From positions 1-64,000 of the forward strand of contig DUOO01000016.1 in assembly GCA_012838795.1 (NCBI GenBank): DNA of 64,000 nucleotides. The letters run 5' to 3'. Below are positions 3,970-54,581 of the stretch, piece by piece; within the stretch, counting starts at the first letter, position 1; each line of letters starts with the position of its first letter. The notes under the pieces are model-generated. The model searched no databases. It was not told where the DNA came from and saw only the letters and a program-made list of their open reading frames with translations. Both the position numbers and the translations under genes were made by a program. The DNA comes from Clostridiaceae bacterium (lineage in GTDB: Bacteria > Bacillota > Clostridia > Saccharofermentanales > DTU023).

Positions 3970-3998
3970 TTTACAAAAATATTCCGGCATGATATTTT
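3970..3998 (+). promoter_or_regulatory. Probable promoter of the T-box transcript
   Basis: TTTACA (3970-3975) and TATTTT (3993-3998) are separated by 17 bases, which would start transcription near 4005, just before the first T-box stem. The same bases form an AT-rich hairpin (3975-3982 with 3992-3999) that could weakly terminate the upstream dehydrogenase transcript. Read by eye only. Confidence 0.45.
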
Positions 3999-4004
3999 TA
4001 TTAT

Positions 4005-4310
4005 TAAATGCGATGACCGAGAACAAGTAGGTCAATGGAAGTTGTGAGAGATATGCCGGTTGGTGCAAGGCAGAAAACGGAAATTGATTGAATACATCTT
4101 GAGAGCAGCGTCCTGAAATTAACAGTAGGAGACGACGGGTGCGCCCGTAACAGCGTTAGGGTATAAGCTGATTAATTGTCTTTGTTGTACGGAATTTATT
4201 GTCAGTCGTACCCGATGAGGTCTTAGTTGTGAGACTAAGATAAAAAGAGGTGGTAACACGTTTTCTGAACGTCCTCTTGTGTTAATACAAGATGGGGCGT
4301 TTTTTTATTT
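4005..4310 (+). promoter_or_regulatory. T-box riboswitch leader, apparent tyrosine (UAC) specifier
   Basis: A transcriptional T-box leader. Visible parts in order: the Stem I distal element with AGAGA and GGTTGGTGC; the specifier region GAATACATC followed by TTGAGAGC, giving UAC (Tyr) in the usual position; a Stem III hairpin (4221-4227 with 4234-4240); and the conserved T-box TGGTAACACG (4251-4260). The antiterminator pairs AAGAGG (4245-4250) with CCTCTT. The competing terminator uses about 4269-4300 followed by a T run. Uncharged tRNA-Tyr should stabilise the antiterminator and switch on the downstream gene. The next gene starts about 170 bases after the terminator and encodes a tyrosine phenol-lyase-like enzyme. 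Confidence 0.92.
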
Positions 4311-4482
4311 CTCCATCAAACGAAACACATAATGAGTTAAGAAGACAGAGGAAATATTCCTCAAAATGAATTTTGATTCTGCAGCAAATAAACTGAAAAA
4401 GCGTTTTGTTTACAGAAATCAAAATACTATGTTAACTAAAAAACAGGTTAACAGAACAAAAAGTTGATTTAAGGAGAAGAAC

Positions 4483-5928
4483 ATGAAAGAAATTCGTTTT
4501 TTTAGTGGCAAAGACGTTCCCTTAGAACGTCATCGAGTATATGTAGTTAGAAAATTACATTTATTACCGGTTGAAGAGCGTTTACAAAAATTGCAAGAGG
4601 CAAAAAGTAATCTTTACTTATTGCATAATAAAGACATTTTTCTCGACATGTTAACTGATAGCGGTGTCAATGCATTGAGTGATAATCAGTTGGCGGCAAT
4701 GATGAATGCGGATGATGCCTATGCAGGAAGTGAGTCTTTTTATCAGTTAGAAGCCAAAGTCAAAGAACTGTTTGGTATGGATCACTTTTTACCGGCACAT
4801 CAAGGTCGCGGTTGCGAAAAAGTGTTGTCTGATCTTTTAGTTAAGCGGGGTGACATTGTTCCGATGAATTATCACTTTACGACTACAAAGTCACACATTG
4901 TGCGATGCGGTGGTGAAGTTGTTGAACTATTACCGCCGGAATCCTTGGAATGCAAGAGTGATTTGAAGTTTAAGGGTAACATTGACATCGGTATGTTAAA
5001 AGATGTTTTTGAGAAAAATCATAAACGTATTCCATTTGTCAGACTTGAAGCAGGTACCAACCTGATTGGCGGTCAACCCTTCTCTTTGGATAATTTAAAA
5101 CAAACATCTGAAATCTGTCGCTCGTATGAGATACCTTTGATGTTAGATGCATCCTTACTGCAAGATAATCTTTACTTTATGAAAAAAGACGATCCGGCTT
5201 GCCAAGATTTGACGATAAGAGAAATCACAAAGATAATCGGTGATCTTTGTGATATTATTTATTTTTCAGCCAGAAAATTAGGCTTTGCACGTGGTGGTGG
5301 TATTGCAATGCGTGAAGGTCCGCTGGTGGTTCGCTTAAAAGAATTAATTGTCTTGAATGAAGGTTTCCATACATACGGCGGTATGTCGGTAAAAGACATT
5401 GCGGCGATTACGGTCGGTTTAGAAGAAACAATGGATATGGAAATGATCTCCCAGGGACCGCTCTTTATCAAATATATGGTTGAAGAGCTGGATAAACGTG
5501 GTGTTCCGGTGGTAACACCTCCGGGCGGACTCGGTTGTCACCTTGATGCAATGAGATTTGTACCGAATATTCCGCAAAATCAATATCCGGCTGCTGCCTT
5601 GGCTGCTGCCGTCTACTTAGCCGGCGGTATCCGCGGTATGGAACGCGGTACACTCAGTGAAGATCGTAACCCTGACGGAACTGAACGTCTTGCTTCAATG
5701 GAATTGCTGCGTTGTGCGATGCCGCGTCGTGTATTTACTTTAAGTCAAGTTGAATTTGCGATTGATCGAATTCATTGGCTTTGGGAAAATCGTGAATTAA
5801 TCGAAGGTTTGGAATTTACACTTGAACCGAAAATATTACGTTTCTTCGTAGGCGAACTGAAACCGGTTTCTGATTGGCAAGAAAAGATTGTTAAACGCTT
5901 CCGCCAAGATTTCGGCGACTCACTGTAA
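4483..5928 (+). CDS. Tyrosine phenol-lyase-like PLP-dependent beta-eliminating lyase, divergent
   Basis: A 481-residue member of the tyrosine phenol-lyase/tryptophanase family (fold-type I PLP enzymes that split aromatic amino acids into phenol or indole, pyruvate and ammonia). Against Citrobacter TPL, recalled from memory, it keeps Tyr71 (here Y80), Arg100 (R109), Phe123-Thr124 (F132-T133), Asn185 (N193), Asp214 (D222), Ser254 (S262), PLP Lys257 (K265), Arg381 (R388), Arg404 (R410) and Phe448 (F454). Thr124, Arg381 and Phe448 are the TPL-type specificity residues where tryptophanase has Asp, Ile and His. However, Arg217 is Leu (L225) and Lys256 is Arg (R264), so activity may differ. It is preceded by a tyrosine T-box and has ribosome site AAGGAG. 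Confidence 0.8.
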   Translation: MKEIRFFSGKDVPLERHRVYVVRKLHLLPVEERLQKLQEAKSNLYLLHNKDIFLDMLTDSGVNALSDNQLAAMMNADDAYAGSESFYQLEAKVKELFGMDHFLPAHQGRGCEKVLSDLLVKRGDIVPMNYHFTTTKSHIVRCGGEVVELLPPESLECKSDLKFKGNIDIGMLKDVFEKNHKRIPFVRLEAGTNLIGGQPFSLDNLKQTSEICRSYEIPLMLDASLLQDNLYFMKKDDPACQDLTIREITKIIGDLCDIIYFSARKLGFARGGGIAMREGPLVVRLKELIVLNEGFHTYGGMSVKDIAAITVGLEETMDMEMISQGPLFIKYMVEELDKRGVPVVTPPGGLGCHLDAMRFVPNIPQNQYPAAALAAAVYLAGGIRGMERGTLSEDRNPDGTERLASMELLRCAMPRRVFTLSQVEFAIDRIHWLWENRELIEGLEFTLEPKILRFFVGELKPVSDWQEKIVKRFRQDFGDSL

Positions 5929-45925: not shown

Positions 45926-46951
45926 TTATTCAAGCAGATCGGCGATTTCATAAATTAATTGCTCGGATTTTTTCCAGCCAAGACAAGGATCGGTAATAGA
46001 TTTGCCATAAACATTTTCACCGATACTTTGACTGCCGTCTTCAATATAGCTTTCAATCATAAAGCCTTTAACGATACTATTGACGTCTTTAGAATAGCGG
46101 CAACTATGCAGAACTTCTTTGGCAATACGAATTTGCTCAAGATATTTTTTGCCTGAATTAGAATGGTTGGTGTCAACAATCACTGCGGGATTTTTTAAGT
46201 TTGATTCCGCATACGCTTCATATAGGGAAATCAAATCTTCGTAATGATAATTGGGTGTTGATTGCCCGTAACGATTGACGAATCCGCGCAAAATAGCATG
46301 TGCGAGAGGATTGCCGTTACTTTTACATTCCCAACCTCGATATTCGAACATTTGCGGTTGTTGAGCGGCATAGATTGCGTTCATCATAACTGTAATATCA
46401 CCACTGGTCGGATTTTTCATTCCGACCGGAATACCGACACCGCTTGAGGTTAAACGATGTTGTTGATTTTCAACTGAACGAGCGCCGACAGCTACATATA
46501 CCAATAAATCATCAAGATAACTGTGATTTTGCGGATAGAGCATTTCATCAGCACAACTGAAGCCATATTCTGTCAATGCACGCATATGCAATTTGCGAAT
46601 AGTAATTAAACCTTTGGTTAAATTAGGTTTCTCACCGGGATCAGGTGAATAGGACATTCCTTTGTATCCGATACCCAAAGTACGGGGTTTGTTAGTATAT
46701 ATACGAGGGACAAACAGAATCTTATCCTTGACTTTATCTTCTATTTTATGTAACCGGGAAAGATAATCTAAAACAGAAGTTTCATTATCCGCCGAGCATG
46801 GACCGATTATCAAAATAAGACGGTCGTCTTTGCCCGTGAAAATATCTTCGATTTCTTGTTGACGTTGTTTTTTTATTTCCAATGCCTTTTTCGGCACCGG
46901 AAATTGGGCTTTGATTTCTTTAGGTAGTGGAAGTTTGCTGATAAATTCCAT
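45926..46951 (-). CDS. aroF: 3-deoxy-7-phosphoheptulonate synthase (DAHP synthase, class I)
   Basis: A 341-residue class I (AroAI-alpha, AroFGH-like) DAHP synthase, the first step of the shikimate pathway (phosphoenolpyruvate plus erythrose 4-phosphate). It has ILIIGPCSADN, RIYTNKPRTLGIGYKG, GARSVENQQHR and VDTNHSNSGKK. The N terminus aligns with the E. coli type enzymes, which are feedback-controlled by an aromatic amino acid; which one is not clear here. The gene is separated from tyrA by a 252-base gap and has its own promoter. Confidence 0.93.
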   Translation of the reverse strand: MEFISKLPLPKEIKAQFPVPKKALEIKKQRQQEIEDIFTGKDDRLILIIGPCSADNETSVLDYLSRLHKIEDKVKDKILFVPRIYTNKPRTLGIGYKGMSYSPDPGEKPNLTKGLITIRKLHMRALTEYGFSCADEMLYPQNHSYLDDLLVYVAVGARSVENQQHRLTSSGVGIPVGMKNPTSGDITVMMNAIYAAQQPQMFEYRGWECKSNGNPLAHAILRGFVNRYGQSTPNYHYEDLISLYEAYAESNLKNPAVIVDTNHSNSGKKYLEQIRIAKEVLHSCRYSKDVNSIVKGFMIESYIEDGSQSIGENVYGKSITDPCLGWKKSEQLIYEIADLLE

Positions 46952-47064
46952 CTTTAATCTCCAATATTATTATTAAAATCTCTATTTCTCCTCAGAATTT
47001 CGAACTGTGCAAAATTATTTTCACAGAACTCCAAATTATGAGTAAATAATATTTTATAATAAAA

Positions 47065-47092
47065 ATTGTATAGACATAAAATAATCTTGCAA
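47065..47092 (-). promoter_or_regulatory. Promoter for aroF
   Basis: On the minus strand TTGCAA (47087-47092) and TACAAT (47065-47070), 16 bases apart, lie in the tyrA-aroF gap. A CTGTG/CACAG hairpin lies downstream of it in the leader. No T-box or other riboswitch is seen here. Confidence 0.5.
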
Positions 47093-47203
47093 ATTTAGCG
47101 GAAATCTAAAAATATTTCAGTTACAAAAATAATATACCATAACTGATATGTAAGATTATTTGGTAAAAAAAACAAAAGTTTAACGCTAAGAGCTGAAAAC
47201 AAA

Positions 47204-48073
47204 TTAATTATCACACGGGTACTTATCAAATCTTGAACGGCGTTCGGTAGATTTGCGCATTATTTTGCGCATGGTTGCAATATCATCATTTTGCAGAGCT
47301 TGTTTTAATTTAGTGAATTCTAATTCAAATTTTTCCATATGTTTGATCAGATTCTTTTTATTTAAAATAAATAATTCAGACCACATTGCATAATTGATTT
47401 TGGCAATTCGAGTGAGATCGCGAAAAGAATCTCCTGTGTAATTTTCGAGATGAGGTGAATCATTGCAGGTCATCAATGCAATGGCAATACAATGAGTTAA
47501 TTGGGATAAAAATCCGATCATATCGTCATGTTCTTCCGGAGATAATTTGGAAACTGAAGCAAAACCTAAGACACGACCAAGTTGTTCGCAAACCTCAATT
47601 GCTTGTGGAGAATTATTTTCTGTAGGTGTTACAATGTAATTAGCATCTTTGAAAATTTCATCTGTAGCATTTTCAACCCCGTAGACTTCACGACCTGCCA
47701 TGGGATGTGCCGCGATAAATTCAATACCTTCAGGTAAAAGCGATTCTATTTTATAAATAATTGGCAATTTAACTCCTGTAACATCGGTGATTAAAGTACC
47801 TTTTGAAATGTTTTGTCCGTTTTGTTCCATCCATTCCAAAAAAGTATGGGGGTAGAGTGCAAAGATAATTAAATCTGAATCAGATATTAATTGAGGATCC
47901 GGAGTAATTGTTCCTGATTCGATTAAGTTGTGTTCAACAGCATAGTCGATAGATTTTTGGCTTGTAGTAATTGCCCTTACTTTATATCCTTGTTTAGTTA
48001 ATGCCATTGCATAACTACCGCCGATCAGGCCCAGTCCGACAATTAGAATTTTTGTGTCTTTAGTTAATTTCAT
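47204..48073 (-). CDS. tyrA: Prephenate dehydrogenase TyrA
   Basis: A 289-residue NAD-dependent enzyme that converts prephenate to 4-hydroxyphenylpyruvate on the way to tyrosine. It has the Rossmann motif IVGLGLIGGSYAMAL (near residue 8), TDVTGVK and AAHPMAGREVYG. I use ATG 48073, which overlaps the aroA stop in an ATGA junction; the longer frame from 48181 lies inside aroA and has no family match. There is no mutase or ACT domain. Confidence 0.93.
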   Translation of the reverse strand: MKLTKDTKILIVGLGLIGGSYAMALTKQGYKVRAITTSQKSIDYAVEHNLIESGTITPDPQLISDSDLIIFALYPHTFLEWMEQNGQNISKGTLITDVTGVKLPIIYKIESLLPEGIEFIAAHPMAGREVYGVENATDEIFKDANYIVTPTENNSPQAIEVCEQLGRVLGFASVSKLSPEEHDDMIGFLSQLTHCIAIALMTCNDSPHLENYTGDSFRDLTRIAKINYAMWSELFILNKKNLIKHMEKFELEFTKLKQALQNDDIATMRKIMRKSTERRSRFDKYPCDN

Positions 48074-49353
48074 TTGATATATTCCAGCTCTATTCCTAAT
48101 TGCTCCATTACCGTAAAAAAGTCGGGAAAACTTTTTGATACAGCAGCTGCACCTTCGATAATCCCGCCGGTAATTGAACATAATATTGCCAAAGACATAA
48201 CAATTCGATGATCATTGTGTCCGAATAAGATTTCCTTAGGAGTATTCAATATACCGGGAATGATTTGTACTGAGTTTGGCTTAAGAATTACTCTGCTGCC
48301 GAATTTCGCCAATTCTTTTGCCATGGCATTAGCTCGGTTACTTTCTTTGATTGCCAGTCTTTGAGTATCGGTAAATGTTGCGCCATTATAAGCTGCGGCT
48401 ATAGCAAATAAAATCGGGCCTAAATCAGGGCAGTTTTTCAGAGAAATTTGCGGACTGCTTTCGGTTAATTGTTTAAATAATTCGGGATAAACGGCATCGC
48501 CTTGTAAACTATCGGTTTTTAGCCCTTTTACTTCAACTTTTCCGCCGAACAAATTGAATGCTGCCAGGAATGCCGCATTGGAATAATCACCTTCAACGGT
48601 TCTGTTCCCGGATTTGAATTTTTGATTACCTTGAATTGTAAACCTGATCCCTGTGTTTTGTACATTTTCTATTTTTTTTGCTGTCCATCTGTTGTTTACT
48701 GTTTGCGCATTCTCTATTGTTGAGATATCAAAAGAAACATCTATCCCGAATTCTCTTAATGCTTCGATGGTCATTAATATATAGGAGAAACTTTCAACCG
48801 GTGGTGTAATTTGCAAAATACTGTTTCCGGACAGCAGGGGAAGTGCATAGAGTAATCCGGTTGCAAATTGACTGCTGATATTTCCGGGAATTGAATAATA
48901 TCCATTAATTAAAGGTCCTTGTACGGTTATACCGTTTATTTGATGTTCAAACAGCAGATTTCTCTCTTGAGCAATATCGTGATACACACCCAATGGCCGC
49001 TTAAACAAATATTCACTTCCTGATAAGTTGACTATATTACCGTTTATTAAAGCTAAAGGGATCAAGAAACGTAAAGTGCTTCCGCTTTCGCGGCAATTTA
49101 ACTCTGTCTGAGGTTTACATTTTTTGGGATTCGTACCGTCAATTAATATAGTTTTGTCGTCTAATTGCCACTTAGCACCCAGAGCTTGCAAACAATCTAA
49201 AGTTGCAGAAATATCTTCGCTCAAAACAACATTATTTACTTGACTTCGCCCTTCGGCTAAACCCGCACAAATCAATAAGCGGTGCGCCATGCTTTTGGAA
49301 GGGGGAGCCGTTATGCAACCTTTAGCTGATGATGGTATTATTTTGACTTTCAT
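48070..49353 (-). CDS. aroA: 5-enolpyruvylshikimate-3-phosphate synthase AroA
   Basis: A 427-residue EPSP synthase. Motifs are PPSKSMAHRLLICAGLA, LNCRESGSTLRFLIPLAL, and GHNDHRIVMSLAILC near the C terminus. It transfers enolpyruvate to shikimate 3-phosphate. It lies 53 bases after aroQ and overlaps tyrA by four bases. The motif LNCRESGSTLR is the type found in class II EPSP synthases of Gram-positive bacteria. Confidence 0.94.
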   Translation of the reverse strand: MKVKIIPSSAKGCITAPPSKSMAHRLLICAGLAEGRSQVNNVVLSEDISATLDCLQALGAKWQLDDKTILIDGTNPKKCKPQTELNCRESGSTLRFLIPLALINGNIVNLSGSEYLFKRPLGVYHDIAQERNLLFEHQINGITVQGPLINGYYSIPGNISSQFATGLLYALPLLSGNSILQITPPVESFSYILMTIEALREFGIDVSFDISTIENAQTVNNRWTAKKIENVQNTGIRFTIQGNQKFKSGNRTVEGDYSNAAFLAAFNLFGGKVEVKGLKTDSLQGDAVYPELFKQLTESSPQISLKNCPDLGPILFAIAAAYNGATFTDTQRLAIKESNRANAMAKELAKFGSRVILKPNSVQIIPGILNTPKEILFGHNDHRIVMSLAILCSITGGIIEGAAAVSKSFPDFFTVMEQLGIELEYIK

Positions 49354-49406
49354 TGGAATAATACTAACCTATATCTTAATTAATAATAACAATGATCACT
49401 TCAATG

Positions 49407-49853
49407 TTAATCGCCGGAAGCTTTGACCTGTGCAGCCAGCAAATCAATCGCTTCAATATATCCCTCTATTCCTTTGCCGGATATGGTAGCTATGCAGGCT
49501 TCTCTGATATAGCTGATTTGACGATAATCTTCACGTTCTTCAATTTTTGAAATGTGTACTTCAACAGTGGGAATCGATACAGCTTTGATCGCATCCAACA
49601 AAGCGATACTTGTATGTGTATAACCTCCAGGATTGAATACAATTCCATCGATTTTTTCAAAATATGAGTCTTGAATTTTATCTATTAAATCGCCCTCGTG
49701 ATTTGATTGCAAAACCAGAACTTCATAATTATTTTGGCTGCAGTATTCATTGATACGATTGACTAAATTACTATAGGTGTCTGAACCGTATTGGTCCGGT
49801 TCACGAATACCGAGCATGTTCAGATTTGGTCCGTTTAAGACTAATAATTTCAT
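49407..49853 (-). CDS. aroQ: 3-dehydroquinate dehydratase, type II (AroQ)
   Basis: A 148-residue type II dehydroquinase. It has NGPNLNMLGIREPDQYG at the N terminus, with the catalytic Arg and Tyr, then QSNHEGDLID, FNPGGYTHTS (active-site Asn and His) and VEVHISKIEERE. It forms 3-dehydroshikimate. The ATG at 49853 has AGAGGG ahead of it, and the gene is 41 bases from aroC. Confidence 0.95.
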   Translation of the reverse strand: MKLLVLNGPNLNMLGIREPDQYGSDTYSNLVNRINEYCSQNNYEVLVLQSNHEGDLIDKIQDSYFEKIDGIVFNPGGYTHTSIALLDAIKAVSIPTVEVHISKIEEREDYRQISYIREACIATISGKGIEGYIEAIDLLAAQVKASGD

Positions 49854-49894
49854 AAAATCCCTCTTTACTGTTTATCTAAGAAATCAATTACTGT

Positions 49895-51013
49895 TCAGAT
49901 TTCATTTACAATCCAATCAGTACCGTAACGTAATGCATAAACATCGCATAAAATCAAAGCAGTCATTGCATTGACAACTTCCCGGGCACGATGAACTATT
50001 GCCGGATCGTGGCGTCCGTGTATTTCTAAAATGGCATTTTTCTTTTGTAAAATGTCGACTGTAGGTTGCGGTTTGGAAATAGAAGAAGTAGGCTTAATTA
50101 CTGTTTGATAGAGCAGAGGCATCCCGTTGGAAATTCCACCGTTTATTCCGCCGTTGTAATTGGATAAAAAAGTAATTTTGCCATCAAGCATGACAGGGGA
50201 ATCATTAACCTGACTGCCTTTTCTAACCGCAAAATCAAAGCCCAAACCAAAAGAAACACCCTTGACCGCAGGAATTGAGAATAGTCCATGTGCTATTATA
50301 CTTTCCAGAGTATCAAACCATGGTTCGCCCAGACCGGCATCAATTCCGAGTACACATGTTTCTAAAATTCCACCGACACTATCCGATTCTTTTTTTGCAT
50401 TCAGAATAGCTTGTTGCATAAGTTCGCCCTTGGCATTATTCAGAACGGGGAAGAGTTTTGTTGAAACATCTTTTACCTGTTGCTTCAATGCAGAAGCATT
50501 TTGTCGGAAATCAACAAAAGTGTCATCGGAAATACCGGCACATTCTTTGATATGAGTTCCGATAAAGATGTTTTTTTGTTCAAGAGCATACATGCATATG
50601 GCACCGGCACATACTAAAGCTGCGGTTATTCTTCCGGAAAAATGTCCGCCGCCGCGGATATCCTGATAGCCGTGATATTTGGTATATGCAGCATAATCTG
50701 CATGTCCGGGACGTAAGAGATGTTCAGTTCTTTGATAGTCTTTGCTTCTGATATCCATATTGGGAATGATAATCCCGATTGGCGTTCCGGTAGTTACTCC
50801 ATTGTGAATACCACTGACAAATTTGAATTGATCAGTTTCACTTCTCGGAGTTGAGATATTACTTCTTGCAGAACGTAATGACAATCTGGTTCTGATATAG
50901 TCCTCATCTATTTTGATGCCCGGGGCCAATCCGTCAAGTACGGCACCGATGGCTTGACCGTGACTTTCTCCGAACAGGGTAATGGCGACACTTTGTCCAA
51001 AAGTATTTTTCAT
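49895..51013 (-). CDS. aroC: Chorismate synthase AroC
   Basis: A 372-residue FMN-dependent chorismate synthase. Motifs are GESHGQAIGAVLDGLAPG, the Arg-rich segment SLRSARSNISTPRSETD, RPGHADYAAYTKYHGYQDIRGGGHFSGR and the late GRHDPAIVHRAREVVNAM. It makes chorismate from EPSP. A GGGAG ribosome site precedes the ATG and aroB ends 19 bases upstream. Confidence 0.95.
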   Translation of the reverse strand: MKNTFGQSVAITLFGESHGQAIGAVLDGLAPGIKIDEDYIRTRLSLRSARSNISTPRSETDQFKFVSGIHNGVTTGTPIGIIIPNMDIRSKDYQRTEHLLRPGHADYAAYTKYHGYQDIRGGGHFSGRITAALVCAGAICMYALEQKNIFIGTHIKECAGISDDTFVDFRQNASALKQQVKDVSTKLFPVLNNAKGELMQQAILNAKKESDSVGGILETCVLGIDAGLGEPWFDTLESIIAHGLFSIPAVKGVSFGLGFDFAVRKGSQVNDSPVMLDGKITFLSNYNGGINGGISNGMPLLYQTVIKPTSSISKPQPTVDILQKKNAILEIHGRHDPAIVHRAREVVNAMTALILCDVYALRYGTDWIVNEI

Positions 51014-51032
51014 TTTATTCTCCCATATAATT

Positions 51033-52034
51033 TCAGCGATTAACTAACAAAGTTTTCAAATCGGAAATTGAAATTTTGTTTAATTCATAGCTGCCTATTT
51101 CCGGAACTGAAACTATAGTTATTTGATTTCCGTCGGCTTTTTTATCATGTAAGATTGAACGAAAAATAAGCTCGGGATCCAAGGCGACTTCAATTGGCAA
51201 ACAATATTTCTGCAGAACTTTTATTAAAGTTTGTTTCACTTGCCCACCGGAAAAATATAACATGCCAAGTGCAATACATTCTCCGTGATAATAATTATCT
51301 GAACAATTGGCTTCAATAGCATGACCGATCGTATGTCCGAAATTGAGAACTTGCCTCAGACCTGCTTCTCTTTCATCTTGTTCAACAACAGAAATTTTGA
51401 TTTTCAGGCTTTCCGCAATAACTTTTTCGATGTTTTGCCAAGCATCTTGATACATGAGAAAATCAAAAAAGTCAGAGTTTGAAGTAGCTGCCATTTTGAT
51501 CGCTTCTGCGATACCGCTGGCTTTTTGACGTTCCGGCAAAGTTGTCAGTACATCAGGATCTATTAGCACCTTTTTCGGTTGGTAAAATGCTCCGACAATG
51601 TTTTTGACTTGTTGCATATTGATCGCAGTTTTTCCGCCTACTGATGAATCAATTTGTGAGAGTAAAGTAGTCGGAATATTGTAAAAGTCGATACCTCGCA
51701 TATAACTGGCAGCGACAAAACCTGCAAGGTCACCAACGACACCGCCGCCTAAACCTATTATCGCATCTGTTCTGGTAAAATTGTTCCTGATCAAAACATG
51801 ACACAAATTCGTAAATTGCTCAATGTTTTTATTATTTTCACCTTGGGGGATTATTTCGACTAAATAATTTTCACATTGTTCTGCAATAGTTTCAATATAT
51901 TGGGCAGGAATGCCGGAATCACTTATAACTAATATTTTACGATTTAAATTAAGCTCAGATGATGCTTGGTTTAAACAACCTTTTTTTATTAATATTTCAT
52001 AACTGTTCTCGCCTAAATCGACATTCAAACGCAT
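51033..52034 (-). CDS. aroB: 3-dehydroquinate synthase AroB
   Basis: A 333-residue NAD- and metal-dependent enzyme that cyclises DAHP to 3-dehydroquinate. It has IGLGGGVVGDLAGFVAASYMRGI, PTTLLSQIDSSVGGKTAIN, and the metal ligand motif NFGHTIGHAIE. The length is slightly short of the typical 350-360, through a compact C terminus. The start directly abuts the pheA stop. Confidence 0.94.
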   Translation of the reverse strand: MRLNVDLGENSYEILIKKGCLNQASSELNLNRKILVISDSGIPAQYIETIAEQCENYLVEIIPQGENNKNIEQFTNLCHVLIRNNFTRTDAIIGLGGGVVGDLAGFVAASYMRGIDFYNIPTTLLSQIDSSVGGKTAINMQQVKNIVGAFYQPKKVLIDPDVLTTLPERQKASGIAEAIKMAATSNSDFFDFLMYQDAWQNIEKVIAESLKIKISVVEQDEREAGLRQVLNFGHTIGHAIEANCSDNYYHGECIALGMLYFSGGQVKQTLIKVLQKYCLPIEVALDPELIFRSILHDKKADGNQITIVSVPEIGSYELNKISISDLKTLLVNR

Positions 52035-53135
52035 TTATTCTACCGCCTTTTGTTCTACGAACGAACCTATCATTTTCACTTGATTACAGCATACTTGGAG
52101 TGCTTCAAGCATGTCCTGACCGTCAGGTGTGTAAATATTGCCGTCTGCTTCAGCATAAAAATAGTATTGCCACATCAGTTCCGGCATCGGCCTGCTCCGC
52201 AAAGTTCTCAAATTATAACCATGAGCGCCGATGATATTCAATGCTCTGGCCAATGAACCGGCTTCATGGGTAACTGTAAACATTAAAGCAAAATGCACGT
52301 CGTGTTTATCACTGATCGAGCGGTTTTCTGAGGCACTGAGAATTGCAAAGCGGGTTGTATTCGTTTTGGCGGTATTTATACCGGCAGCCAAGGTTTCCAA
52401 ACCGTAAAGATCTGCACTGTCTTTGCTGGCAATTGCAGCAATAGCCGGATCATTTTGTTTTGCTACATATTGAGCTGCAAGAGCTGTGTTATCAGCAGAA
52501 ATTTGTTTCAGGTTATTGTCCCGGATGAATTTAGTACATTGATCGAGCGCTTGAGGATGACTGATTACCGTTTTAACATCTTTGAATTTTGTCCCGGGTA
52601 AACCGATCAGATCATGTGTAATTGTTAATTCATAGGTTGCATTAATGAACAATGGACCGGAAAACAGTAAATCAGTTACTTGACCGACTTCGCCTGCGGA
52701 ACTGTTTTCCAGAGGTAAAACGGCAATATCACATTCTCCTTTGACCACAGCATCATAAGTTGCTTTGAAACCGCTGTAAGATTCTTTGAGGGCTGTCGGA
52801 AATAGTTTGCGTGCCGCTATATGAGCATAAGCACCTTCAATACCGCTGTATCCTATTTTCATTCCGTTCAATAATCTGTTCTGATAGGACCTCGAAATGC
52901 GCATTGTTTGACGTAAAAAATCTGCATAATAACCTTTCAATAATTCATCTTCAATCCAATCAGAATTATTTCGAATCATTTCTTCTTCGCGTTCCCGATC
53001 ATAGATTTGCAGACCGTGTTCTTGTTTGTAGGCAGCAATTCCTTCCGCTAATTTCATACGTTGTTCGAAAAGATCAGCCATTTGGCTGTCAATTTGATTT
53101 ATTTTTTCTCTGGATAGTTTTAAATCATTATTCAT
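52035..53135 (-). CDS. pheA: Bifunctional chorismate mutase/prephenate dehydratase PheA
   Basis: A 366-residue P-protein for phenylalanine synthesis. Residues about 1-85 are an AroQ-type chorismate mutase (REKINQIDSQMADLFEQRM), about 95-275 the prephenate dehydratase (GIEGAYAHIAARKLF, VLPLENSSAGEVG and the catalytic TTRFAIL), and the end an ACT regulatory domain (HEAGSLARALNIIGAHGYNL). I use ATG 53135, preceded by GAGGG; the longer start at 53147 overlaps that ribosome site. It heads the aroBCQA-tyrA run. Confidence 0.94.
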   Translation of the reverse strand: MNNDLKLSREKINQIDSQMADLFEQRMKLAEGIAAYKQEHGLQIYDREREEEMIRNNSDWIEDELLKGYYADFLRQTMRISRSYQNRLLNGMKIGYSGIEGAYAHIAARKLFPTALKESYSGFKATYDAVVKGECDIAVLPLENSSAGEVGQVTDLLFSGPLFINATYELTITHDLIGLPGTKFKDVKTVISHPQALDQCTKFIRDNNLKQISADNTALAAQYVAKQNDPAIAAIASKDSADLYGLETLAAGINTAKTNTTRFAILSASENRSISDKHDVHFALMFTVTHEAGSLARALNIIGAHGYNLRTLRSRPMPELMWQYYFYAEADGNIYTPDGQDMLEALQVCCNQVKMIGSFVEQKAVE

Positions 53136-53276
53136 AATTTCCCTCATATCTTTGTATAGCTTACTAATAGTAAACCTATTGTTATTAATTAATTTTGTTA
53201 ATGTAATTGTATTAATATACAGCTTTATACTCTTTTTATAAAGTGAAAATGTTCGTGAGATGAATTTTATTCTAAA

Positions 53277-54470
53277 TTATGGTAAAAGGTTATATTCTTT
53301 TGCCAATTGTTTAAAAGCAGGCAGCGAGTTAATAATTTGTTCGGTCGATACACAATAGGCAATTCTGACAAAACCGGCATAACCGAAACTGTCACTGGGA
53401 ACTAATAATAATTCATATTTTTTTGCCAGTTCACAAAATTTTTCAGCATCTTGAATCGGTGATTTTACAAATAAATAAAAAGCACCGCTCGGATAGACAG
53501 CAGTGAAACCTAAATCTTTTAATCCGTTGTATAGTATATCGCGATTCTTTTTATAAATGGATAAATCAGCGGTCATGCCGATACATTCTTTAATCAAAAA
53601 TTGAAATAAAGATGGAGCGCAGACATAGCCTAAAGAACGTCCGGCTCCGCAAATTGCGACAAAAAGATCATTTGCGTTTTCAGCTAAAGGTGAAACAAAA
53701 ATATACCCGATACGTGCTCCTGCCAATGAAATCGACTTACTATAAGAGTAGATAATAATTGTATTGTCGTAATAATGAGGCAAGTAGGGAAGTTCAATAT
53801 CGTAAATTAATTCCCGATATGGGCCGTCACTTAAAATATAGATCGGTTTTTTAAATTCTAATTGTTTTTGCTTCAAGATTTCTGCCAGTTTTTGAATAGT
53901 ATCTTCACGATAACAAGTTCCGGTCGGATTGTTCGGTGAATTAACGATGATTGCTTTAGTATTAGCAGTGATGGCTTGCTCTAAACCAGCAAGATCTGGT
54001 TGGAAGTCATGCTCATTACACGGAACAATGATCAATTTGGCATTACTATGTTCAACGTAAATCCGATATTCCGGAAAAAACGGAGCGAATACGATTACCT
54101 CATCGTCTTGGGTAGTTAAGGCGTTAAGGCATATAGCAAGTCCTGATGCAGCACCGCAAGTCATATAGATCAGCTCAGCTGTAGCAGGAAAACGGAAAGT
54201 TTCCTGAATATAATCGGCGACTGCTTCTCTGACACTTTGGTCTCCCGGAGCAGAAGTATAACCATGCAATTTTTCTGCCGGTACTGAATCAATCAGTTGT
54301 TTTATAATATCGTTTAATTGTGGAGGTGCGGGAACACTGGGATTGCCCAGACTGAAATCAAAGACATTTTCAGCACCGATTTCCGCTTTGCGTTTCAGAC
54401 CGTATTCGAATATTTCGCGAATAACAGAACTTTGTTTACCTAAATCTAACATTTTCTTCGCTACTGACAT
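53277..54470 (-). CDS. PLP-dependent class I aminotransferase (aspartate/aromatic type)
   Basis: A fold-type I aminotransferase of about 397 residues. It has NSPNNPTGTCY, the PLP lysine in YSYSKSISLAGARIGY, and the C-terminal Arg in FVRIAYC. Location before pheA suggests transamination of phenylpyruvate and hydroxyphenylpyruvate, but the subfamily also includes aspartate aminotransferases. ATG 54470 fits the family start; the frame runs on to 54500. A 141-base gap separates it from pheA. Confidence 0.88.
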   Translation of the reverse strand: MSVAKKMLDLGKQSSVIREIFEYGLKRKAEIGAENVFDFSLGNPSVPAPPQLNDIIKQLIDSVPAEKLHGYTSAPGDQSVREAVADYIQETFRFPATAELIYMTCGAASGLAICLNALTTQDDEVIVFAPFFPEYRIYVEHSNAKLIIVPCNEHDFQPDLAGLEQAITANTKAIIVNSPNNPTGTCYREDTIQKLAEILKQKQLEFKKPIYILSDGPYRELIYDIELPYLPHYYDNTIIIYSYSKSISLAGARIGYIFVSPLAENANDLFVAICGAGRSLGYVCAPSLFQFLIKECIGMTADLSIYKKNRDILYNGLKDLGFTAVYPSGAFYLFVKSPIQDAEKFCELAKKYELLLVPSDSFGYAGFVRIAYCVSTEQIINSLPAFKQLAKEYNLLP

Positions 54471-54581
54471 TTTTTTATCACTTTCCCTTAAATTCGCCAT
54501 AATTATAACATAGAGATTTCAAAACATTAAAAATGTTATACTAAAATCAAATAATATTTAGTAATTATGAGGAGTTCGTGA

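Follow-up and report, generated by a model that had tools for sequence, protein, structure and literature searches.

A tyrosine T-box leader upstream of a gene of a third tyrosine phenol-lyase/tryptophanase clade, and a proposed role in tyrosine formation from phenol

The main finding of this analysis is that a T-box leader RNA of the tyrosine type (positions 4004 to 4279, + strand) precedes a gene (4483 to 5928, + strand) for a 481-amino-acid PLP enzyme related to tyrosine phenol-lyase (TPL); the positions are those of the window, the whole 64,000-nucleotide stretch of DNA that was analyzed. We consider it close to certain that this leader is a tyrosine T-box with the lyase-family gene as its target. 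Whether the enzyme would form tyrosine by salvaging phenol is a proposal that we regard as evenly balanced. Each of the components is of a known kind; their combination is what appears to be new.

An earlier note on this DNA had claimed a tyrosine T-box in front of a TPL-like gene. A covariance-model search (cmscan) gave a match to the complete T-box model RF00230 (model positions 1 to 219) at 4004 to 4279, with a score of 113.8 bits (cut-off 93) and an E value of 2e-24. This full T-box was the sole Rfam match across the whole window and, taken with its UAC specifier, its UGGU bulge, and the PF01212 gene at 4483 to 5928, it bore out that claim. In an alignment of 22 leaders, Stem I showed compensatory changes in 19 of 20 pairs. 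Immediately 5' of the T-box is a promoter-like site (3970 to 3998, + strand) consisting of TTTACA, a 17-base spacer, and TATTTT, with TG before the second hexamer; its 9 of 12 matches are a consensus match only, in a region no richer in such sites than shuffled sequences. The specifier stretch (4087 to 4096, + strand), around TTGAATACAT, comprises the loop-E GAA, the specifier UAC, and a conserved purine, and was assigned from the sequence, the covariance-model alignment, and the invariance of AATACA in 22 leaders. The T-box sequence AGAGGTGGTAACACG (4247 to 4262, + strand) contains the UGGU bulge, the predicted partner of the ACCA end of tRNA-Tyr, and was assigned from the sequence, cmscan, the leader alignment, and A73.

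A predicted intrinsic terminator (4267 to 4307, + strand), which would compete with the antiterminator, is followed by a T run that was kept in 22 leaders. RNA from 4262 to 4312 had a folding energy of -16.0 kcal/mol (z -4.59), and none of 200 shuffled sequences was as stable. The sequence CCUCU serves the terminator as its 5' arm and the antiterminator as its 3' arm. Because the two structures have this arm in common, the leader is predicted to have the usual architecture, in which an uncharged tRNA turns transcription on. The lyase-family gene begins about 200 bases past the T-box and terminator.

On its 3' side the specifier loop has the sequence GAA-UAC-A-U. The UAC specifier pairs with the tRNA-Tyr(GUA) present in the genome, and A73 of tRNA-Tyr fits the UGGU bulge; because these two independent positions agree, the leader was assigned to tyrosine. 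AAUACA and GGUGGU were both invariant in all 22 aligned leaders, and an A-U or G-C pair adjoining the specifier was kept in 18 of them. The reading of the specifier as UAC (Tyr) in the earlier note was thus upheld by the host tRNA-Tyr(GUA), the match of A73 to UGGU, and the invariant AAUACA.

The specifier frame was judged by a test of the TBDB type, in which frames -1, 0, and +1 are compared with the anticodon and discriminator base (PMC7778990), here those of the host tRNAs. An out-of-frame ACA (Thr) had to be excluded, because in the thrS and ileS T-boxes of this genome a single base separates GAA from the codon. That spacer would suit the reading GAA-U-ACA-U, and the enzyme would then be threonine-related; threonine aldolases are in the same Pfam family and have a related fold. 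However, all three tRNA-Thr in the genome, tRNA-Thr(UGU) among them, have U73, which cannot pair with UGGU, and the thrS T-box has a UGGA bulge in accord with that base. Further points against ACA are the distant leaders L150, L125, and L141, which show UAC in the canonical frame GAA-A-UAC-A, the conserved pair flanking the specifier loop, and the protein itself, which unlike the aldolases is TPL-like over its full length. On the sequence the threonine reading is already refuted, and we find it scarcely credible. The frame in which the codon abuts GAA exists in this genome, since the T-box before a substrate-binding protein gene (read as trpX) has UGG directly after GAA; the UGGC bulge of that T-box fits G73 of tRNA-Trp.

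The pairing of the T-box with the gene was conserved. A close homologue was found in 25 of 148 related genomes, with 59–98% identity for complete genes, and a T-box preceded it in all 24 relatives in which the upstream region was present; the remaining homologue (in G042) begins at a contig edge and was left out of this count. In two genomes the lyase gene was present as tandem duplicates (G030:C17:41039-44921 and G033:C314:264-3299), each copy having its own T-box. A scan of GTDB genomes gave at least 589 candidate stretches for the gene, and a T-box was found at 18 of the 80 best loci. The distant carriers among these loci include Christensenella, Eubacteriaceae, Oscillospiraceae, Dethiobacter, and Halanaerobiales, and no T-box was found at the clade members sampled from Proteobacteria, Actinomycetota, Spirochaetota, and Bacillaceae. 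T-box presence on the tree required 8 changes, vs 20.7 for shuffled labels, so inheritance explains most of the association, alongside several gains or losses. The search of related genomes for conserved pairing, proposed in the earlier note as a check, thus found it in every assessable relative and in distant lineages, and its retention in relatives, distant Clostridia, and a Halanaerobiales bacterium ruled out chance or a single-genome artefact.

In the relatives, the TPL/tryptophanase paralogues examined gave no T-box in front of them. The genome of one relative (G028) encodes a bona fide TPL and a tryptophanase besides the T-box lyase, and of these three genes only that for the lyase was found to have a T-box. 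Another target for a tyrosine T-box in the relatives was rejected: in G006, G009, G015, G022, G008, G014, G029, G032, and G036, visual inspection of the reading frames that follow the high-scoring T-boxes examined assigned these to trpX, ileS, trpB2, methionine-type transporter, and metG-like genes. In G014, a T-box with a UAC-like specifier and a UGGU bulge (L225; G014:C26:5623-5873) ends near a contig edge. Two weaker T-boxes of the window's own genome lie before an aminotransferase gene (L005; GCC, an Ala-like specifier) and a 2-isopropylmalate synthase-like gene (L006). In Firmicutes bacterium UBA4882, a NiCo riboswitch (L159:8634-8740) lies shortly 3' of the clade member.

The gene product was assigned from its open reading frame, profile matches, a tree, and a structural model. 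The protein matched PF01212 (Beta_elim_lyase; 146.6 bits) and the broad-subfamily profile NF009709 (552.5 bits, cut-off 285). Its scores were below the cut-offs of both equivalog profiles, far so for TPL (TIGR02618; 392.6 bits, cut-off 720.7) and likewise for the tryptophanase TnaA (TIGR02617; 311.4 bits, cut-off 825.8). The nearest solved sequences were TPLs, with 38% identity. In a tree of 91 sequences the enzyme belonged to a clade that branches outside TPL plus tryptophanase on a very long stem, the exact root being unsure with such long branches. From its sequence the enzyme is thus a member of a third, widespread, uncharacterized clade, neither TPL proper nor tryptophanase; a plain TPL or a plain tryptophanase was ruled out by the equivalog cut-offs, the residues described below, and the tree. 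The statement in the earlier note that the enzyme is of the family that destroys tyrosine holds for its relatedness to TPL; that it would be a TPL proper does not. Purifying selection was strong (NG86 dN 0.071 and dS 3.30, and dN 0.015 and dS 0.41, vs two congeners). The predicted structure had a mean pLDDT of 88 and aligned with TPL with a Z of 48 and an rmsd of 1.8 A over 449 residues, which shows a common fold and is silent on the direction of the reaction.

The catalytic residues Y80 and K265 were invariant in the 24 clade members sampled, and in TPL numbering the PLP lysine, Y71, N185, D214, R100, and R404 were kept. Five residues distinguish phenol- from indole-lyases (PMC5805759). At four of these positions all 24 members were of the TPL type, with T133, M386, R388, and F454 for T124, M379, R381, and F448 of TPL; among these, Arg381 is a key determinant of the specificity of TPL for tyrosine (PMC3870968). 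The position of Met288 was Phe in the clade, as in tryptophanase. Around the cofactor, Arg217 was replaced by Leu225 and Lys256 by Arg264 in all 24 sampled members, whereas both residues were invariant in the TPLs and tryptophanases compared. A386 was Glu in all 24, D258 was Leu or Phe, and every one of the 24 had a one-residue deletion near the PLP lysine. Judged by these alignments, the phenol pocket is kept and the surroundings of the cofactor are changed; because Arg217 and Lys256 are changed in every sampled member, even the basic chemistry could differ. The enzyme thus resembles TPL (EC 4.1.99.2; Citrobacter freundii, Erwinia herbicola) in its fold, PLP lysine, Y71, R100, R404, and the four phenol-pocket residues, but differs in having R217 changed to Leu, K256 to Arg, D258 to Leu, and M288 to Phe, in not keeping W61, and in its low identity and profile score. 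It resembles tryptophanase in family, fold, and the Phe at the M288 position, but lacks the indole-type residues D137, V394, I396, and H463, and its clade branches outside both enzymes.

The substitutions at Arg217, Lys256, Asp258, and Ala386, the deletion, the Phe for Met288, and the very long stem branch could also reflect a changed reaction, in which the enzyme acts on another substrate of tyrosine supply, for instance by building or releasing tyrosine with another donor or from a modified amino acid; the logic of the T-box would then be biosynthetic and phenol uninvolved. We hold this to be unlikely, though a serious contender: the residues by which TPL recognizes the phenol ring (T124, M379, R381, and F448) are all kept, and no partner gene suggested another substrate, the 80 loci having no conserved operon partners.

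The paradox raised in the earlier note, that a T-box of the starvation type for tyrosine stands before a relative of a tyrosine-degrading enzyme, was rightly noted. The tpl genes of Citrobacter and Erwinia are activated through TyrR, and the physiological role of the known TPLs is catabolic (PMC1173090), in contrast to the tyrosine-starvation control predicted for the clade gene. Membership in the TPL/tryptophanase family, together with that catabolic role, would agree with an ordinary degrading beta-lyase acting on tyrosine or another amino acid, the T-box being either a true paradox or a means of nitrogen or pyruvate supply in starvation. Retention of the tyrosine T-box in all of the assessable relatives and in several distant lineages, set against the TyrR-activated tpl, and the separate bona fide TPL in G028 make such a role improbable.

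Among the solutions offered by the earlier note, we favor synthesis or salvage, because the T-box with its terminator would be on when the tRNA is uncharged, its conservation is broad, the pocket is of the TPL type, and a parallel exists in tryptophan T-boxes before TrpB2; the options of a degrading enzyme and of another substrate are the less favored ones. The direction of the reaction, its substrates, and the physiological role that follow are what we infer from these features. When tRNA-Tyr is charged, the T-box would hold the gene off. In tyrosine shortage, uncharged tRNA-Tyr would bind the leader at its UAC specifier and UGGU bulge, the antiterminator would replace the terminator, and the gene would be transcribed. 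Its product, a PLP-dependent fold-type-I relative of TPL, would run in the tyrosine-forming direction, joining phenol from the surroundings to a C3 amino acid unit (pyruvate plus ammonium, or serine-derived aminoacrylate) to give L-tyrosine. TPL itself can join phenol to pyruvate and ammonia to give tyrosine (PMC12058496). The same reaction, phenol plus a C3 amino acid donor to tyrosine, is that of an engineered tyrosine synthase (Almhjell 2024, as cited in PMC12909874), although that enzyme, as described in the citing source, is a laboratory-evolved TrpB of another fold. With the tyrosine T-box (RF00230) of Bacillus tyrS, the leader has in common Stem I, the UAC specifier, the UGGU bulge, the antiterminator, and the terminator; the difference is that here it drives a lyase-family gene.

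The proposed enzyme would be the tyrosine counterpart of TrpB2, which uses indole and serine for tryptophan synthesis and is likewise controlled by a tryptophan T-box in related genomes. In G010, G016, G022, and G028, which are of the same family as the window's genome and all without a chorismate synthase match, a tryptophan T-box (GAA-UGG-G) lies 95–96 bp 5' of a TrpB2 gene that scores above the TIGR01415 cut-off. Three of these four genomes (G010, G016, and G028) also carry the tyrosine T-box gene, and in L138 (Eubacteriaceae) no more than 5 kb separates a tryptophan T-box and TrpB2 from the tyrosine T-box lyase gene. A tryptophan T-box (UGG) was directly 5' of trpB2 in five genomes (L138:10873-12533, - strand, and L220-L223), and four of these gave no match for chorismate synthase. 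At G028:C18:5884-9070 (L222), the tryptophan T-box and trpB2 adjoin a convergent TPL-type gene with one in-frame TGA in the match. TrpB paralogues have reported roles in the indole salvage of Thermococcus, and exogenous indole is turned back into tryptophan by bifidobacteria (PMC11085991); trpB2 under a tryptophan T-box is a case of tryptophan rescue from indole. TrpB2 (TIGR01415) resembles the clade enzyme in being a PLP enzyme for an aromatic ring and a C3 unit, with a T-box for its own product amino acid in related genomes. It differs in being of an unrelated fold type (the beta-synthase family) and in acting on indole and tryptophan, so that the analogy is one of function and not homology. 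As an analogy, this parallel is the strongest hint that tyrosine would be rebuilt from outside phenol.

The window also contains an aromatic cluster (45926 to 54500, - strand) with genes for an aminotransferase, CM-prephenate dehydratase, aroB, aroC, aroA overlapping tyrA, and DAHP synthase. The Rfam scan of the window gave no RF00230 match in this cluster, in agreement with the claim that its aromatic biosynthesis genes lack a T-box. Because the genome has the full aromatic pathway including tyrA, phenol salvage there would be a supplement or an economy measure. In 14 relatives with the lyase gene, mostly incomplete MAGs, there was no match for prephenate dehydrogenase (tyrA) or chorismate synthase (aroC). 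Phylogeny confounds the link between the gene and an absent tyrA (Fisher p 4e-6), which comes mostly from incomplete draft MAGs; within the family, tyrA was present/absent in 6/14 carriers and 1/17 non-carriers. Across the family, chorismate synthase was found in genus g1 alone; the 31 other genomes gave no match. The 17 distant T-box carriers were mixed (chorismate synthase in 9, tyrA over the cut-off in 6, prephenate dehydratase in 7), and since they are mixed and limited by MAG completeness, these counts are weak support only.

Several points thus stand against phenol salvage: the full pathway in the genome itself, the R217 and K256 changes, the lack, among the 80 loci, of a conserved neighbor gene pointing to phenol uptake or supply, the clade members without a T-box, and the phylogeny-confounded link to tyrA. 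Many members of the clade presumably come from digesters, guts, and wastewater, going by record titles and the genera concerned. Such origins, with the kept phenol pocket, would also suit an enzyme that scavenges or detoxifies phenol or some phenolic compound and yields tyrosine as a by-product, but control in all T-box carriers is by tyrosine starvation and not by phenol, and we judge this role very improbable.

A tyrosine T-box on the third TPL/tryptophanase clade was not found in the literature searched, which covered part of the T-box literature. There, T-boxes and tyrosine phenol-lyase were mentioned together with no link drawn between them, and a survey of T-box targets named no lyase (PMC2494555). 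The T-box yields a clear and testable prediction of the direction of the reaction. We tentatively suggest, somewhat short of an even case, that the clade is a widespread natural tyrosine synthase using environmental phenol and a C3 unit. In Firmicutes it would be induced by tyrosine starvation, and together with TrpB2 under T-box control it would form an aromatic-ring salvage system in bacteria whose shikimate pathway has been lost. If so, the products of hundreds of genes (at least 589 candidate stretches), now named "tryptophanase" or "tyrosine phenol-lyase" as though for producers of indole or phenol, may instead consume phenol for tyrosine, which would reverse what is predicted for digesters, guts, and wastewater about the production of phenol and the dependence on tyrosine. 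The clade would also offer a natural starting point for the enzymatic synthesis of tyrosine analogues from phenols, otherwise sought by TrpB engineering, and would provide a route to tyrosine for bacteria without aromatic biosynthesis.
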